Shown here piece after piece: positions 1 through 55,360 of a DNA stretch of 64,000 nucleotides. Every line of letters begins with the position of its first letter. Positions within the stretch are counted from its first letter, which is position 1. Source of the stretch: Planctomycetota bacterium (GTDB taxonomy: Bacteria > Planctomycetota > Phycisphaerae > Sedimentisphaerales > Anaerobacaceae); contig JACNGQ010000198.1 of the NCBI GenBank assembly GCA_014384025.1, forward strand, positions 1 to 64,000. Direction: 5' to 3'. A program made the translations under genes and the position numbers. The notes beneath the pieces are model-generated. The model made no database searches, was not told the DNA's origin, and was given only the letters and a program-made list of their open reading frames with translations.

Positions 1-85
1 CCTTTCGATTTAATATTTTCTATTGAATATTGATGAGTGAAGCTGGGTCCCCGCTCAAGGCATGCGAGGATGACAATATTATTGG

Positions 86-292
86 GATTGGAAAAAGAAA
101 ATTAAAAGTCAAAGTGTAAAAAGTAAAATTATGGAGGCCCTTCGGGCGGCTACTTGAATAGATCCCTCCACTGCGGTCGGGATGACGTTTTAGTATTTCG
201 TATTGCGTATTAGGGCAACCACGCGGAGAAAGCCCCTACATTGAACAGCACAACGATATTTATACGTATTTAGGGCGGTTCACGAACCTCCC
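86..292. repeat. Intergenic repeat copy A: 127-bp near-identical block (86..212) followed by two REP-like hairpin segments
   Basis: 86..212 matches 1668..1794 with only a few mismatches (gattggaaaaagaaaat...tattgcgtatta); both are followed by gggc...gcccctac and gggcggtt...cccctac hairpin units. Confidence 0.85.
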
Positions 293-539
293 CTACGATG
301 AACAATACAATGGGGGAAATTTCGTAAAGCTTTATTGGTGCGATTCATCGCAATCTACCTGTTAAAGTGTCTAAAGTGAGCTAAAGTTGGAAGTGAGCTA
401 AAGTTGGATGCAAGAGAAAGACCATCGACTTTACTCACTAAAGTTCACTCAGTGGCTGCCACCCGTAGGCCATAATTAACGAGGCTGCAGGTGTTGCAAT
501 CGCCATCAATCTGTGTGCAATATTCTGGTTTAGCTGTAG

Positions 540-1626: not shown

Positions 1627-1666
1627 CCCTTTCGATTGACTAATTTCTATTTAATATTGACTATTG
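1627..1666. repeat. Heptad-periodic 40-bp element, nearly identical to 2157..2196
   Basis: ccctttcgattgactaatttctatttaatattgactattg; one mismatch in 40 to 2157..2196; reverse strand reads AATAGTC AATATTA AATAGAA ATTAGTC. Confidence 0.8.
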
Positions 1667-1667
1667 T

Positions 1668-1880
1668 GATTGGAAAAAGAAAATCAAAAGTCAACGTGTA
1701 AAAAGTAAAATTATGGAGGCCCTTCGGGCGGCTACTTGAATAGATCCCTCCACTGCGGTCGGGATGACGTTTTAGTATTTCGTATTGCGTATTACGAATT
1801 AGGGCAATCGCGCGGGGTTGCCCCTACGATGAATAATGCATTGGGGATATATGCGTTTTAGGGCGGTTCGCGAACCGCCC
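1668..1880. repeat. Intergenic repeat copy B, ending in a perfect 20-bp palindrome gggcggttcgcgaaccgccc (1861..1880)
   Basis: Direct comparison with copy A; the palindrome equals its own reverse complement. Confidence 0.85.
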
Positions 1881-2156: not shown

Positions 2157-2196
2157 CCCTTTCGATTGACTATTTTCTATTTAATATTGACTATTG
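2157..2196. repeat. Heptad-periodic 40-bp element (copy of 1627..1666)
   Basis: Reverse strand reads AATAGTC AATATTA AATAGAA AATAGTC AATCG. Confidence 0.8.
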
Positions 2197-17055: not shown

Positions 17056-17097
17056 TATCAAGTAACGACAAACGAGAATCAAGTATCAAGGAACGAG
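17056..17097 (+). repeat. Six-unit heptad tract directly upstream of dapL start codon
   Basis: TATCAAG TAACGAC AAACGAG AATCAAG TATCAAG GAACGAG then TATG. Confidence 0.8.
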
Positions 17098-17098
17098 T

Positions 17099-18331
17099 AT
17101 GACTAAGATTAATGAGAATTTTTTGAAACTTCAGGCCGGTTATCTTTTTCCGGAAATCGGCCGAAGAAAAAGAGCCTTTCAAGAGGCTAATCCGGATGCT
17201 GATATCATCAGTATGGGTATCGGCGATGTTACCCAGCCACTTGTTCCGGCCATCATAGAAGCTATGAAAAAAGCCGTTGAAGAAATGGGCAATAGCAAGA
17301 CCTTTAAAGGCTATGATGACGGCGGGATAGGCTATGAATTTCTAAGAAAAGCAATAAAGGAAAATGACTTCAACTCCCGCGGCGTCGATATCGACATCGA
17401 CGAAATCGTCATCAGCGATGGCGCAAAGTGCGATACCGGGAATATGCAGGAAATATTCAGCCTTGACAACGTAATAGCCGTATCAGACCCTGTGTATCCC
17501 GTATATGTGGATACCAACGTTATGTCGGGCAGAACAGGCGGCCCGGCGGGGCAGGGCAGGTACGAGGGAATTGTCTATATGCCCTGCACAGAGCAAAATA
17601 ATTTTGTACCTGATTTACCTAAGGAAAAGGTCGATTTGATTTACCTGTGCTTTCCGAATAATCCTACCGGCGGGGTGGCAACAAAAGAGCAGTTGAAAAA
17701 ATGGGTTGATTTTGCACGCGAACATAAAGCGATAATTCTTTTTGACGCCGCATACGAAGCCTTTATTTCCGAGACGGAGATACCACACTCCATATACGAG
17801 ATTGAAGGAGCAAAAGAAGTAGCCATCGAGTTTCGCAGCTTCTCAAAGACCGCAGGCTTTACCGGTCTGCGATGCGCATTCACCGTTATCCCCAGGCAGT
17901 TAAAGGCGTACACTAATGACGGCAGGGCGATTGAAGTCGCCCCGATATGGAAAAGACGCCACTGCACAAAGTTCAACGGCGTATCATACGTCACCCAAGC
18001 CGGAGCGGCCGCTGTTTACAGCCCCGAAGGCAAAGAGCAAAACCAGAAAATTATCGATATCTATATGGCCAACGCAAAGCTTATCTGCGAGAGCCTCAGA
18101 AAACTCGGGTTTACTGTTTACGGCGGCCTCAACGCGCCATACATCTGGCTAAAGACCCCCAACGGCGTCGGTTCCTGGGAATTCTTCGATACATTACTTA
18201 ACAAGGCACACGTTGTAGGCACTCCCGGGGCCGGCTTCGGCTCGGCAGGAGAAGGATTCTTCCGCCTCACAGCTTTCGGAACTCCAGACAATGTAAAAGA
18301 AGCCCTGCGGCGTTTCGCCAGCATCGTATAA
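17099..18331 (+). CDS. dapL: LL-diaminopimelate aminotransferase
   Basis: [53 protein letters not shown], overall DapL-type sequence. Confidence 0.95.
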
Positions 18332-20774: not shown

Positions 20775-20795
20775 ATGCAAGCAACGAGCAACGAG
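20775..20795 (+). repeat. Short heptad tract upstream of lgt start codon
   Basis: ATGCAAG CAACGAG CAACGAG, 10 nt before ATG at 20806. Confidence 0.6.
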
Positions 20796-25121: not shown

Positions 25122-26708
25122 CTAAAAGAGAATTGAATCAGCGAAAACATCCTGGAATTCCGGCTCATGAGCGATTTCAATGTATTCAATCTTTTTGGCT
25201 AATTCACGTGCCTTGTCTCTGTATTGCTGGCTGACAAGGGCCATCCTCGCGCCAGAAGAGGCAGCGTTGCCAACAAAAACAATCCGTTCAAGCGGAACAT
25301 CAGGCAGCAGACCTATTCGCAATGCACTTTCCTTCCGGATATAATTGCCAAACGCGCCGGCCAAAAGAATGCGTTCTATATCGGCATCTTCAAGGCCGAT
25401 TTTTTTTTGCAGAAGTTTGATGCCTGCTCTTATGGCGGCCTTTGCTAATTGTGTTTCGCGGATGTCCTTTTGTCTCAGGAATATCTTATCGGCAGCGCCG
25501 CTATCCGATAAAATAAAAGCCGGCTCACCTTGCTGCTCACATATACGAGATAAAATAGCAGGTGAGACCTTATCCTTGAGGTTTGCCGGTTCGACAAAAC
25601 GTCCTGTTAAATCGATAATGCCGAGTTCCAGCATTACCGCCACTGCATCAATAAGGCCTGAGCCGCATATCGAGCGGGCAGGGCAGTTTCCTATCACTTC
25701 TAAATCTATATCACCTTCATTTACAACAACAGCTTCTATAGCGCCTTCAGTCGCTCTGCTTCCGCATGTTATACGTGCCCCCTCAAGGGCCGGCCCGGCC
25801 GCACAACTGGCAGCATAAAGTTTGTCCTTTGTGCCGAGAACAAGCTCTCCGTTTGTGCCGATATCAACGGCAAGTGTCATTTTTTCTGCCGAATCAATAT
25901 CGACCGCAAGTGCCACAGCCGTAGTATCCGAACCGACAAAGCCGGCTATATTCTCAACAGTATGGATTTTGCCGGCTGGATTCATTGCTATATGCAGCTT
26001 CCAGGCAGGTAAATCGTGCGCATCGAGCGAGAATGCCTTATAAGGTGCCTGTCCGAGCTGACTTATGGGTAATTCGAGGAAGATGTGATTCATAGTCGTA
26101 TTGCCGACCACACACATTTCATATATGAAATGTGCATTAACGCCCGTTTTGTGGCAGAGTTTTATCACGAGGTCATTAATACAGCCTGTTATGTCTCTAT
26201 TTAATTCAGATAACTTATCTTCGTTGTGGGCGTAAGCAATCCTGCTGATGACATCATCACCGTATTTGCTTTGTGGATTGAGAGCTGCTTCTGTAGCGAG
26301 ACATTCTCCGTCAATCATTTTAATTAGCTTGGCAACAACGGAGGTTGTGCCGATATCAACGGCAATTCCGAATATCTTATCCAGTGAAGAAATTTCCAGA
26401 TACTTCTCATATATATCCGCAACCCCATCAATATCTGTTTCGATACCATGGGCTAAATATTTATGCTCGAAGAATCTGGAATCGCGGGGAATTGTTACTG
26501 TAAGGTCGCTTTTAATACGGTACTGACAGGCGAGAACAGCTTGTCCCGATGGCTCAAGTTTTATCAGGCACTTTTTACAAGTACCTATACCACCGCAGAA
26601 AGTATTCAGAATTATACCCGCTTTGCCCGCAGCTTCCATAAGGGTTTCACCTGAATGAATGGAAATTTGCCTGCCGTCGGGTTTGAAAGATATTGTGAAG
26701 TGCTTCAT
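25122..26708 (-). CDS. 2Fe-2S ferredoxin-ASKHA domain protein (RACo-like / DUF4445, corrinoid activation type)
   Basis: FCGGIGTCKKC 2Fe-2S ligands; FGIAVDIGTTSVVAKLI; LAVDIGTNGELVLG; LLAGAFGNYI. Confidence 0.9.
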   Translation of the reverse strand: MKHFTISFKPDGRQISIHSGETLMEAAGKAGIILNTFCGGIGTCKKCLIKLEPSGQAVLACQYRIKSDLTVTIPRDSRFFEHKYLAHGIETDIDGVADIYEKYLEISSLDKIFGIAVDIGTTSVVAKLIKMIDGECLATEAALNPQSKYGDDVISRIAYAHNEDKLSELNRDITGCINDLVIKLCHKTGVNAHFIYEMCVVGNTTMNHIFLELPISQLGQAPYKAFSLDAHDLPAWKLHIAMNPAGKIHTVENIAGFVGSDTTAVALAVDIDSAEKMTLAVDIGTNGELVLGTKDKLYAASCAAGPALEGARITCGSRATEGAIEAVVVNEGDIDLEVIGNCPARSICGSGLIDAVAVMLELGIIDLTGRFVEPANLKDKVSPAILSRICEQQGEPAFILSDSGAADKIFLRQKDIRETQLAKAAIRAGIKLLQKKIGLEDADIERILLAGAFGNYIRKESALRIGLLPDVPLERIVFVGNAASSGARMALVSQQYRDKARELAKKIEYIEIAHEPEFQDVFADSILF

Positions 26709-26709
26709 C

Positions 26710-26723
26710 CTCGCATCTCGTAC
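26710..26723 (-). repeat. Heptad pair abutting the start codon of the ASKHA gene
   Basis: Reverse strand GTACGAG ATGCGAG G-ATG; further TATCTCG/TCGCAAG/TATCTCG at 26772..26792. Confidence 0.5.
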
Positions 26724-52556: not shown

Positions 52557-52598
52557 AATAATAAATAGTCAATAGACAATAGAAAATAGTCAATTCTA
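52557..52598. repeat. Six-unit AATAGTC-like heptad tract overlapping the stop codon of 52596..53888
   Basis: AATAATA AATAGTC AATAGAC AATAGAA AATAGTC AATTCTA. Confidence 0.8.
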
Positions 52599-53888
52599 CA
52601 ACCGCCATGGGCTTCGCATCGCCCTTGATAGCATTCGATTGGCCTGTTCATCGTTGATAAAGCGTTCCTTGTCAGGGTCCCATTTTAGTTTTCGCCCCAA
52701 CAGCATTGAAATATTGCCGATGTGTGCGATTGTAAAGCAACGATGGCCTATCTCCGGCGGAAAATAACAGTCCTTACGAGATTTAACACAATCAAGGAAG
52801 TTCCGCTGCTCACCTGCCTTACACGTATAAAGATGAATCTCATTCGGCTCAATCACAGAATCCAGAATGGATTCAGGTTCGGCCTGCAGTTTCGCCCTCC
52901 AGCCGCGATTACCTATCCACCCCTCCGACCCTTCGAACCGCAGACTTGGAGTACCCGAAGTCACTATCAGCCTGACTCCGCTGGCATATTTATATTCGAT
53001 TTTAAATTCTTTTGCGCTGTTATAAAGTCCGTCCCGCCAGAATTCACCTTTTCCTTCAACCTCCACCGGCCCGGTATGTTCAGTATCGTTTCCCCACTGA
53101 GCACCGTCCAGAAGATGCGCTCCCCAGTCCGTTAACATCCCTCCCGAATAATCATGTATCCATCGAAAGTTCCAGTGAATGCGGTCTTTGTTATATGGTG
53201 CGTATGGTGCCGGGCCAAGCCACATATCATAATCAAAACCATCCGGCACGGGCATAGGTGTAGGGTCTCCGGGCGTATCCGGCCCGCTCGGCAGCTCTAC
53301 CCGGATAGTGTGCACCTTGCCGATTCTGCCATTACGAACCAGTTCGCACATTCTAAGATAAACGTCAACTGACCTGTCTTCCGTTGACCACTGAAAAACT
53401 CGGTTATAACGCTTCATCGTCTCACAAAGTATCCTGCCTTCCTCAACGGTCAGTGTCGGTTTCTCGCATTCGACATCCTTGCCCGCCTTGGCCGCCATTA
53501 TTGAAATTGGTACGTGCCAGTGATCGGGTGTCGAAATCATCACCGCGTCGATATCATCTCGCTCAATAATTTCTCGAAAATCCTTGTAAGTCGCACAATC
53601 TTTATTGCCGTATTTCTTGTTCACCATATCGCGGGCTATGTTCATGTGACTGGTTTCAACATCGCAAACCGCGACAGCCTGGGCATCTGCGTTTCCCAGA
53701 AAGTTCGTTAGATTAACCGCTCTGCCGTGATCGCCCACCCCGATAAAACCAATTGTAATCCGCTCACTGGCCGCAACAGTCCCCGTCTTACCAAGCGCCG
53801 AAGACCGAACCAAATAAGGAAAACCAACCGCCCCCGCAGATACACCAGCTACCTTTCTTAAAAACTGCCGCCTATTAATATTTTTCAT
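52596..53888 (-). CDS. Gfo/Idh/MocA family oxidoreductase with Tat signal
   Basis: NRRQFLRKVAGVSAGAVGFPYLV; ITIGFIGVGDHGRAV; CEKPTLTVEEGR; WTEDR/ HWNFRWIHDYSGGMLTDWGAH. Confidence 0.93.
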   Translation of the reverse strand: MKNINRRQFLRKVAGVSAGAVGFPYLVRSSALGKTGTVAASERITIGFIGVGDHGRAVNLTNFLGNADAQAVAVCDVETSHMNIARDMVNKKYGNKDCATYKDFREIIERDDIDAVMISTPDHWHVPISIMAAKAGKDVECEKPTLTVEEGRILCETMKRYNRVFQWSTEDRSVDVYLRMCELVRNGRIGKVHTIRVELPSGPDTPGDPTPMPVPDGFDYDMWLGPAPYAPYNKDRIHWNFRWIHDYSGGMLTDWGAHLLDGAQWGNDTEHTGPVEVEGKGEFWRDGLYNSAKEFKIEYKYASGVRLIVTSGTPSLRFEGSEGWIGNRGWRAKLQAEPESILDSVIEPNEIHLYTCKAGEQRNFLDCVKSRKDCYFPPEIGHRCFTIAHIGNISMLLGRKLKWDPDKERFINDEQANRMLSRAMRSPWRL

Positions 53889-53935: not shown

Positions 53936-53970
53936 AATAGTCAATAGTAAATAATAAATAGTAAATATCA
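53936..53970. repeat. Five-unit AATAGTC-like heptad tract overlapping the stop codon of 53968..55329
   Basis: AATAGTC AATAGTA AATAATA AATAGTA AATATCA. Confidence 0.8.
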
Positions 53971-55329
53971 AATGTGCCACGGGCTTCGCATCGACCTTGT
54001 CATCATCCTTTCGGCCTGTTCGTCGTTGACAAATTGCTCCCTGTCAGGGTCCCATTTCAAGTCCCGCCCCAACCGCATTGCTATATTACCGAGATGTGAA
54101 ATCGTTATGGAACGGTGAGCCGTTTCAATCGGAGCGACAGTCTCCTTTCGCGAAATCACACAATCGATAAAATTCCGCGAATGATCATCGCTTTTATACA
54201 GATGTATTTCGTTCGGCCCGATGACGGATTCGAGCAGTGACTTCGGTTGAGCATCGTGACGTCCACGGTCCGCCCATATCCGGCCTTCCGTGCCCTCGAA
54301 CGTTACTCCGCCGCGCTCCTTGTTCGAGATAATTAATTTTACGCCGTTCTTATATATACACTCGAAATAGAATTCCTTTGCCGTATTATAAAAACCGTCT
54401 TTGGCAAACACGCCTTTGGCATTTACTATTTCCACCGGCCCTGTATCTTCCGTCCCCATACCCCATTGTGCGATATCAGGGTGGTGCCCTCCCCAGTCCG
54501 TAACCTGCCCACCGGAGTAATCCAGCAGCCACCTAAAATTAACATGGCAGCGGGCGGGGCAGTAGGGGGCATAAGGAGCCGGGCCGAGCCACATGTCATA
54601 GTTAAAACCTTCCGGCACAGGCTTGGGCTTTGTACGATTACCTTGTTTTGAAATATCAGGTGTCCCGCCCGGCAGGCCGCACTTTACAGTATGCAGTTTC
54701 CCAATCCTTCCGTTTCGAACTAATTCGCAAGCACGCCTGAAATTATGGTCCGAACGCTGCTGGCTTCCGGTTTGGAAAACTCGGCCGCATCGTTTAACCG
54801 CATCGCTCATCGCACGTCCCTCCGGAATGGTCAGTGATAAAGGCTTTTCGCCATAGATGTCCTTGCCGGCCATTGCCGCTTCGATAACAACAATGGAATG
54901 CCAGTGGTCAGGAAGCGCAACCAAAACCACGTCGATATCATCACGTTCTATCACCCTGCGAAAATCTTCATACGAAGTGCATCCTCTGTAAGTGCCCGAT
55001 TCCGCCCTAAGGCCATAGTGTTCTACGACTATCCTCTTTGCAGGCTCACGGCCGCCGACACGGTTGTCCCAGTATCCGTTGCTCTCACGATTTACGTCAC
55101 AAACAGCAACAATCTGTACCCGTTCGTCCCTCAAAAAACTATTCAAATCATTGATACCCTGGTTCCCCGTGCCGATACAACCCATGGTAATCCTGTTGCT
55201 TGGCGCAGCATTGCCTGCTTTACCCAGCGATGATGAAGGGACAATATAAGGAAATGCTATTGCCGCCCCGGCAAAACCTGTTGACTTTTTCAAAAAACCG
55301 CGACGTGAGATATAATGTCCCGGATTCAT
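53968..55329 (-). CDS. Gfo/Idh/MocA family oxidoreductase with Tat signal
   Basis: SRRGFLKKSTGFAGAAIAFPYIVPSS; ITMGCIGTGNQG; GEKPLSLTIPEGRAM; NFRWLLDYSGGQVTDWGGHH; start after attggaggttgtagt. Confidence 0.93.
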   Translation of the reverse strand: MNPGHYISRRGFLKKSTGFAGAAIAFPYIVPSSSLGKAGNAAPSNRITMGCIGTGNQGINDLNSFLRDERVQIVAVCDVNRESNGYWDNRVGGREPAKRIVVEHYGLRAESGTYRGCTSYEDFRRVIERDDIDVVLVALPDHWHSIVVIEAAMAGKDIYGEKPLSLTIPEGRAMSDAVKRCGRVFQTGSQQRSDHNFRRACELVRNGRIGKLHTVKCGLPGGTPDISKQGNRTKPKPVPEGFNYDMWLGPAPYAPYCPARCHVNFRWLLDYSGGQVTDWGGHHPDIAQWGMGTEDTGPVEIVNAKGVFAKDGFYNTAKEFYFECIYKNGVKLIISNKERGGVTFEGTEGRIWADRGRHDAQPKSLLESVIGPNEIHLYKSDDHSRNFIDCVISRKETVAPIETAHRSITISHLGNIAMRLGRDLKWDPDREQFVNDEQAERMMTRSMRSPWHI

Positions 55330-55360
55330 ACTACAACCTCCAATCATTATTCAAATGTAT

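Follow-up and report, generated by a model that had tools for sequence, protein, structure and literature searches.

Repeats with a unit of seven nucleotides (heptads) are known from bacteria of unrelated groups, and no cause for them is generally accepted. TAACTGA direct repeats occur in Beggiatoaceae, Cyanobacteria and Bacteroidetes, some sets being interrupted by related 7-bp sequences, and between close Cyanothece strains their insertions and deletions come mostly in 7-nt increments (MacGregor 2015, PMC4679880). The GGGAATC and GGGGA(C/T)T heptads of Xanthomonas and Nostoc form heterogeneous (GGGANTN)n arrays, some of them inverted, that vary extensively in length and sequence between close species (PMC4692102), and in the Nostoc tRNA-Leu intron the hairpin arms of the P6b stem consist of degenerate heptads of variable copy number (Costa 2002, summarised in PMC3488679). 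Geobacter metallireducens carries heptanucleotide elements with the consensus MTYCTGA and GGGACCG (PMC2700814), and satellite families derived from heptamers have been described (PMC6749651). By the accounts given in PMC4679880 and PMC4692102, Mrazek (2007) found heptanucleotides to be the most abundant repeats of 5-11 nt in most bacteria studied and suggested a link to the length of DNA held by the polymerase. The subject of the present analysis is a set of period-7 tracts in the genome of a Planctomycetota bacterium, seen first in a 64,000-nt stretch termed the window (bases 1-64000 of contig C173, from an assembly of 6.69 Mb in 448 contigs), where the main tract lies directly upstream of dapL. 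These tracts are, with a probability of roughly three in four, degenerate heptanucleotide simple-sequence repeats that change by 7-nt slippage at tolerated sites and are partly spread within longer dispersed repeats.

Since the tracts of the window were picked by eye, tests at the level of the genome outweigh those of single tracts. About 1 Mb of the assembly (46% G+C) was sampled, and gapless self-matches at a fixed offset with a score of at least 14 were counted against dinucleotide shuffles. Intergenic DNA contains 15 such tracts at lag 7 against 0.0 in the shuffles, and 0-1 at each of lags 4, 5, 6, 8, 12, 13, 15 and 16. Per megabase, lag-7 tracts number 28 in the window's own genome (G000; comparison genomes are labelled G002, G004 and so on), 200 in its congener G002, and 225 and 94 in G024 and G058 from other genera, set against 0-50 at lags that are not multiples of 7; the G002 and G024 samples were chosen regardless of tracts, and the densities and word counts of the window's genome and G058 are too high because six sampled contigs of the former and most regions of the latter were picked for NNNCRAG matches. 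In all four genomes the 7-nt tandem unit is over-represented relative to most other unit lengths, and different words do share one 7-bp period, as a preliminary description of the window had proposed. In G022, runs of N raise all lags equally.

The measure on which that description had staked its claim, mean intergenic autocorrelation at lag 7 relative to shuffles, gave no excess in the sampled sequence (z -0.7); the mean misses the signal because the tracts, sparse but strong, occupy too little of the intergenic DNA. This null result is what could be said for the tracts being chance or a compositional artefact of AT-rich spacers, an explanation that retains next to no probability and is refuted by the dinucleotide-shuffle tail test, by the conservation of register in congeners, and by family-wide hits for which mirror-pattern controls of the ATTGACT words stay near zero.

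Offsets 9, 10 and 11 are also in excess, mainly from other repeats, namely TAAAGTGAC-like and AAGCCAATTC/AAACCCAATT-like arrays. The AAGCCAATTC, AAACCCAATT and AAACAAACCC units, at mixed 10- and 11-bp spacing, belong to a separate repeat family often found near contig ends (L028:167-302, L038:158-252, L045:293-376, L049:549-645, L064:1-95, L068:19111-19195 and L079:659-748). Arrays of TAAAGTGAC- and CACTTTAGG-like units of 9-10 bp (window 363-408, L024:4584-4620, L028:19-55, L065:14115-14145 and L071:17754-17816) are often close to the AAGCCAATTC arrays and may be part of the same element.

All sequences quoted in the preliminary description are present in the window at their positions, and against 20,000 mononucleotide shuffles of the same tract the lag-7 identity is significant at p ≤ 1.3e-3 for every one except the two-unit tract at 26710-26723. 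The features are as follows.

17056-17097, plus strand: main tract, the heptad NNNC[AG]A(G/C) six times over, separated by 1 bp from the dapL ATG; lag-7 identity 24/35, p ≤ 5e-5
17099-18331, plus strand: dapL, LL-diaminopimelate aminotransferase (NCBIfam TIGR03542, E 1e-180), downstream of the main tract
20775-20795, plus strand: three heptads ATGCAAG CAACGAG CAACGAG, 10 bp before lgt; identity 10/14, p ≤ 1.3e-3
26710-26723, minus strand: GTACGAG ATGCGAG, two heptads immediately upstream of the AcsV-like gene; identity only 5/7, p about 0.01, weak alone
25122-26708, minus strand: gene for an AcsV-like corrinoid activation protein (NCBIfam NF040756, E 6e-111, below the curated cut-off)
52557-52598, minus strand: ATTGACT-class tract (AATAGTC on the plus strand) directly after the stop of the Gfo/Idh-family gene at 52596-53888; identity 26/35, p ≤ 5e-5
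53936-53970, minus strand: ATTGACT/ATTTACT-class tract directly after the stop of the Gfo/Idh-family gene at 53968-55347; identity 23/28, p ≤ 5e-5
1-33, plus strand: copy of a dispersed repeat with ATTGACT-class heptads; identity 16/26, p ≤ 1e-3
1627-1666, plus strand: copy of the dispersed repeat of 1-33 (CCTTTCGATTGACT...); identity 19/33, p ≤ 8e-4
2157-2196, plus strand: copy of the dispersed repeat of 1-33; identity 21/33, p ≤ 1e-4
189-211, plus strand: TTTAGTA TTTCGTA TTGCGTA tract inside a 133-bp direct repeat (copy 80-212)
1771-1801, plus strand: TTTAGTA TTTCGTA TTGCGTA TTACGAA tract where the second 133-bp copy (1662-1794) ends

The Gfo/Idh-family protein encoded at 53968-55347 has 113 matches in the same genome, a large paralog expansion. 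DUF1559 (PF07596) has 17 hits in that genome and 0 in 14 controls, which would suit an affiliation with Planctomycetota.

Orthologous sites reveal how the tracts change among relatives. The dapL tract was compared in five congeners, four of which hold the register with its end 1 bp before the ATG, and the lengths are 42 (window's genome), 35, 35, 42 and 56 bp, corresponding to 6, 5, 5, 6 and 8 heptads. In the fifth congener, G004 (L096), the tract is broken by an insertion, and in genera further away dapL is preceded either by two heptads or by none. The stop-to-start spacer following the second Gfo/Idh gene (52596-53888) measures 57, 36, 43, 29 and 36 bp, values that are all 1 mod 7 and cover five of six species, G002 having other DNA there, and the 53936-53970 tract differs in both length and sequence in every congener. 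In the lgt leader of G002, the only genome with which the lgt and AcsV orthologs were compared, heptads of different words (ATACGCA ATACGAT ATACGCG ATACGAT) occupy the same spot. Replication slippage, which the preliminary description had suggested, agrees with these copy-number steps of 7 among congeners. The insertion in the G004 dapL tract contains GGTAGGGTGGGGCTTGCCCCACC, a palindromic repeat.

Sequence change along individual arrays is equally apparent. In arrays of at least eight units, heptad identity is 0.725 between neighbours (a value partly due to tract selection), 0.30 at ten units apart and 0.19 at twelve, a fall to which the switch to inverted arms adds. Because identity falls with separation, the sequence changes along arrays while the period stays, and neighbouring units would appear to descend from one another. 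Of 142 merged tracts, 15.5% have inverted arms that score at least 12, compared with 3.8% among 710 control windows (p 1.5e-6), and many of these tracts are a heptad array with its own reverse complement behind it (for example L150:2232-2297 and L169:6953-7049).

The words themselves fall into a limited number of classes, namely NNACGAG with NATCGAG, GACAGAA/GTCAGAA, ATTGACT/ATTTACT, ATAGCG, AAGACTC and AAACTCA. When the seven columns of each tract were permuted as a null, pairs of tracts sharing words numbered 159 against at most 79 in G002, 90 against at most 50 in G024, and 183 against at most 120 in the window's genome. Tracts do occur at other loci and in relatives, the absence of which the preliminary description had named as telling against it. 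Four-unit NNNCRAG arrays are present in most genera of the family and rare in the other families of the order, and within one genus the matches range from 0 in G001 to 83 in G004. Three-unit ATTGACT/ATTTACT arrays occur in 22 of 100 relatives, spread over 17 genera, with mirror controls near zero; in a wider draw from the phylum, four-unit CGAG arrays occur in 71 of 296 genomes, often with other variable letters.

At dapL, the junction of the last two heptads reads AAGGA, a Shine-Dalgarno-like site, and in the sequences of five species the spacing between AAGGA or GAGGA and the ATG is constant. On such sequence grounds, single tracts such as this one may have become part of the ribosome-binding site. 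The arrangement would also suit a regulator of translation or termination that binds RNA or DNA at the repeated heptads, as proposed for the TAACTGA repeats of Beggiatoaceae. Across a five-genome sample, 20 of 94 intergenic tracts are no more than 10 bp away from a stop codon, where 7.3 are expected from random re-placement in the same spacer, and this enrichment, together with the hairpins, would fit a regulatory role at 3' ends. Against it, start codons show no enrichment in the same sample (10 of 94 against 7.9 expected), a result less certain than that for stops because gene starts were taken from a simple codon-usage caller; of the earlier remark that tracts often touch start or stop codons, only the part on stops holds. 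Neither the NNNCRAG nor the ATTGACT or CAGA tracts beside starts and stops have a significant orientation bias, the NNNCRAG tracts near starts lying 5 of 7 in one orientation, and an Rfam search of the window gave no match to a known RNA family. The orthologous lgt site carries other words, and arrays also lie within genes. A regulatory function for the tracts as a class is considered unlikely.

Arrays in coding sequence occur in several genes. An AddA-like helicase of the UvrD family, 64-71% identical to the G000 protein, has heptad arrays in two of its linkers, and in the linker before the nuclease domain three species have three different arrays, encoding RDTRYEIRDT, SSHERRATSDE and GTLHASRFTSDE. 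Further arrays are present in a glycogen debranching enzyme, at the C-terminal end of a Clp ATPase, and in the stretch separating RNase H from formyltransferase domains. In G024, L181:14157-15518 is one frame with RNase H and formyltransferase domains and a heptad array as the linker, and in G002 the gene at L166:4261-5343 has an RNase H-like start just behind heptads and a length that fits a similar fusion. Annotators should note that stop-free heptad arrays stretch predicted genes at either end and link domains. The orientation bias of "coding" tracts may be a product of calling genes on these same stop-free arrays.

Local change is not the whole of the matter for the AATAGTC class. The tracts at 1-33, 1627-1666 and 2157-2196 and a fourth copy in the same genome (L055:276-318) have common flanks, their unit variants come in a recurring order (GACT, TTCT, x, GACT), and weaker matches reach both Gfo/Idh tracts. 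Because flanks and variant order recur, this class has been dispersed as well as changing length locally. The spreading element envisaged in the preliminary description is thus borne out for this class; its AATAGTC-like sites are periodic as described, and those at 1-33, 1627-1666 and 2157-2196 are one dispersed repeat instead of independent cases. It could then be asked if the tracts are parts or remnants of elements resembling miniature inverted-repeat transposable elements or repetitive extragenic palindromes, spread by transposition and carrying the period-7 sequence with them. The common flanks would speak for this, as would the 133-bp direct repeat with its heptad tract and the words common to different loci. 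However, copy changes at orthologous sites come in single heptads, the first 2360 bases of the window have no inverted repeats of at least 25 bp, and only one class was seen to share flanks, with no systematic flank search made. As a general account of the tracts, transposition appears improbable.

Degenerate simple-sequence repetition, by contrast with these alternatives, accounts for most of the observations, since local gain and loss of units together with point mutation explains the period, the drift, the steps of seven and the different words at one site. A 7-nt unit would be gained or lost, usually as a whole, through strand slippage or local unequal exchange, and point mutations would alter the words, so that the period stays at exactly 7 while the sequence drifts along arrays and between species. 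Arrays would persist where they do little harm (after stops, elsewhere in spacers, and at the ends and in the linkers of proteins) and would probably be close to neutral. A limited word set recurs in the genome and across the family, some tracts have been copied inside longer dispersed repeats, and some arrays have inverted copies that can fold into hairpins and probably arose by fold-back template switching.

Three points weigh against this explanation. Pure local slippage would not bring back identical words at many loci and across 17 genera, and dispersal, horizontal transfer or word-dependent slippage must for that reason be added. The mutS gene is present in heptad-rich and heptad-poor genomes alike, and MutS loss was rejected on this evidence as the cause of tract abundance. 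The dapL register kept in five species could also mean selection. That the family has a dedicated process which makes and replaces arrays at tolerant sites genome-wide, writing or spreading DNA seven nucleotides at a time with a small, lineage-specific word set, is very unlikely; an example would be a polymerase, or a reverse transcriptase, whose translocation or template step is 7 nt.

The family is well suited to further comparison, as it offers dozens of related genomes whose tract loads differ widely, with orthologous sites at which words and copy numbers can be compared, while in the coding-linker arrays the reading frame limits change. Why the unit is 7, why these words are used, and if the arrays are neutral or selected thereby become testable questions.

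In the literature searched, itself incomplete, nothing was found that describes arrays of this sort from the present lineage. The TAACTGA repeats resemble the present tracts in their 7-nt indel steps and in the related heptads within sets, but consist of one fixed word where these have many degenerate words per genome, and lie mostly forward and just upstream of starts, an arrangement found here at dapL and not in the five-genome sample. TAACTGA direct repeats number 0 in the window's genome and one each in 2 of 37 genomes of the family, and membership in that family of repeats was rejected as the word pairs are absent from G000; AGTCAAT, common here, is TAACTGA spelled backward and not its complement, and so a different word. 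Elsewhere in the order, TAACTGA direct repeats were seen in G030, G077, G031, G035 and G037, all of other families.

The GGGANTN heptads are likewise heterogeneous in their words, partly inverted and variable between species, but are G-rich and quadruplex-forming, whereas the words here are mostly without G runs and the word lists lack the run of at least three G per heptad that marks the G-quadruplex heptads. With the Nostoc P6b stem, as that source is summarised, the tracts share degenerate heptads, copy variation and complementary hairpin arms (here in a subset), although those heptads are confined to one group I intron loop and the tracts here are genome-wide, the Rfam search of the window having given no match to such an intron. 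The other strand of MTYCTGA is TCAGRAK, which fits the TCAGAAG class of G002 and G024; the Geobacter elements are putative regulator sites in few families (PMC2700814).

A further likeness is to the long simple sequence repeats (LSSR) and the short tandemly repeated repetitive sequences (STRR) of cyanobacteria, with which the tracts share a preferred 7-nt unit and a location in intergenic DNA, and the resemblance to heptanucleotide STRRs noted at the outset is supported. LSSR and STRR are usually near-perfect repeats of one word, whereas these tracts are degenerate, drifting and multi-word. In the broad sense of these terms the tracts belong with them, having both the excess of 7-nt units and whole-unit copy differences between relatives; in the strict sense, that of near-identical units, they do not, as adjacent units within a long array disagree at about 27% of positions. 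The heptad tracts described here are a degenerate, multi-word form of a known repeat type, and represent no new kind of gene or element.
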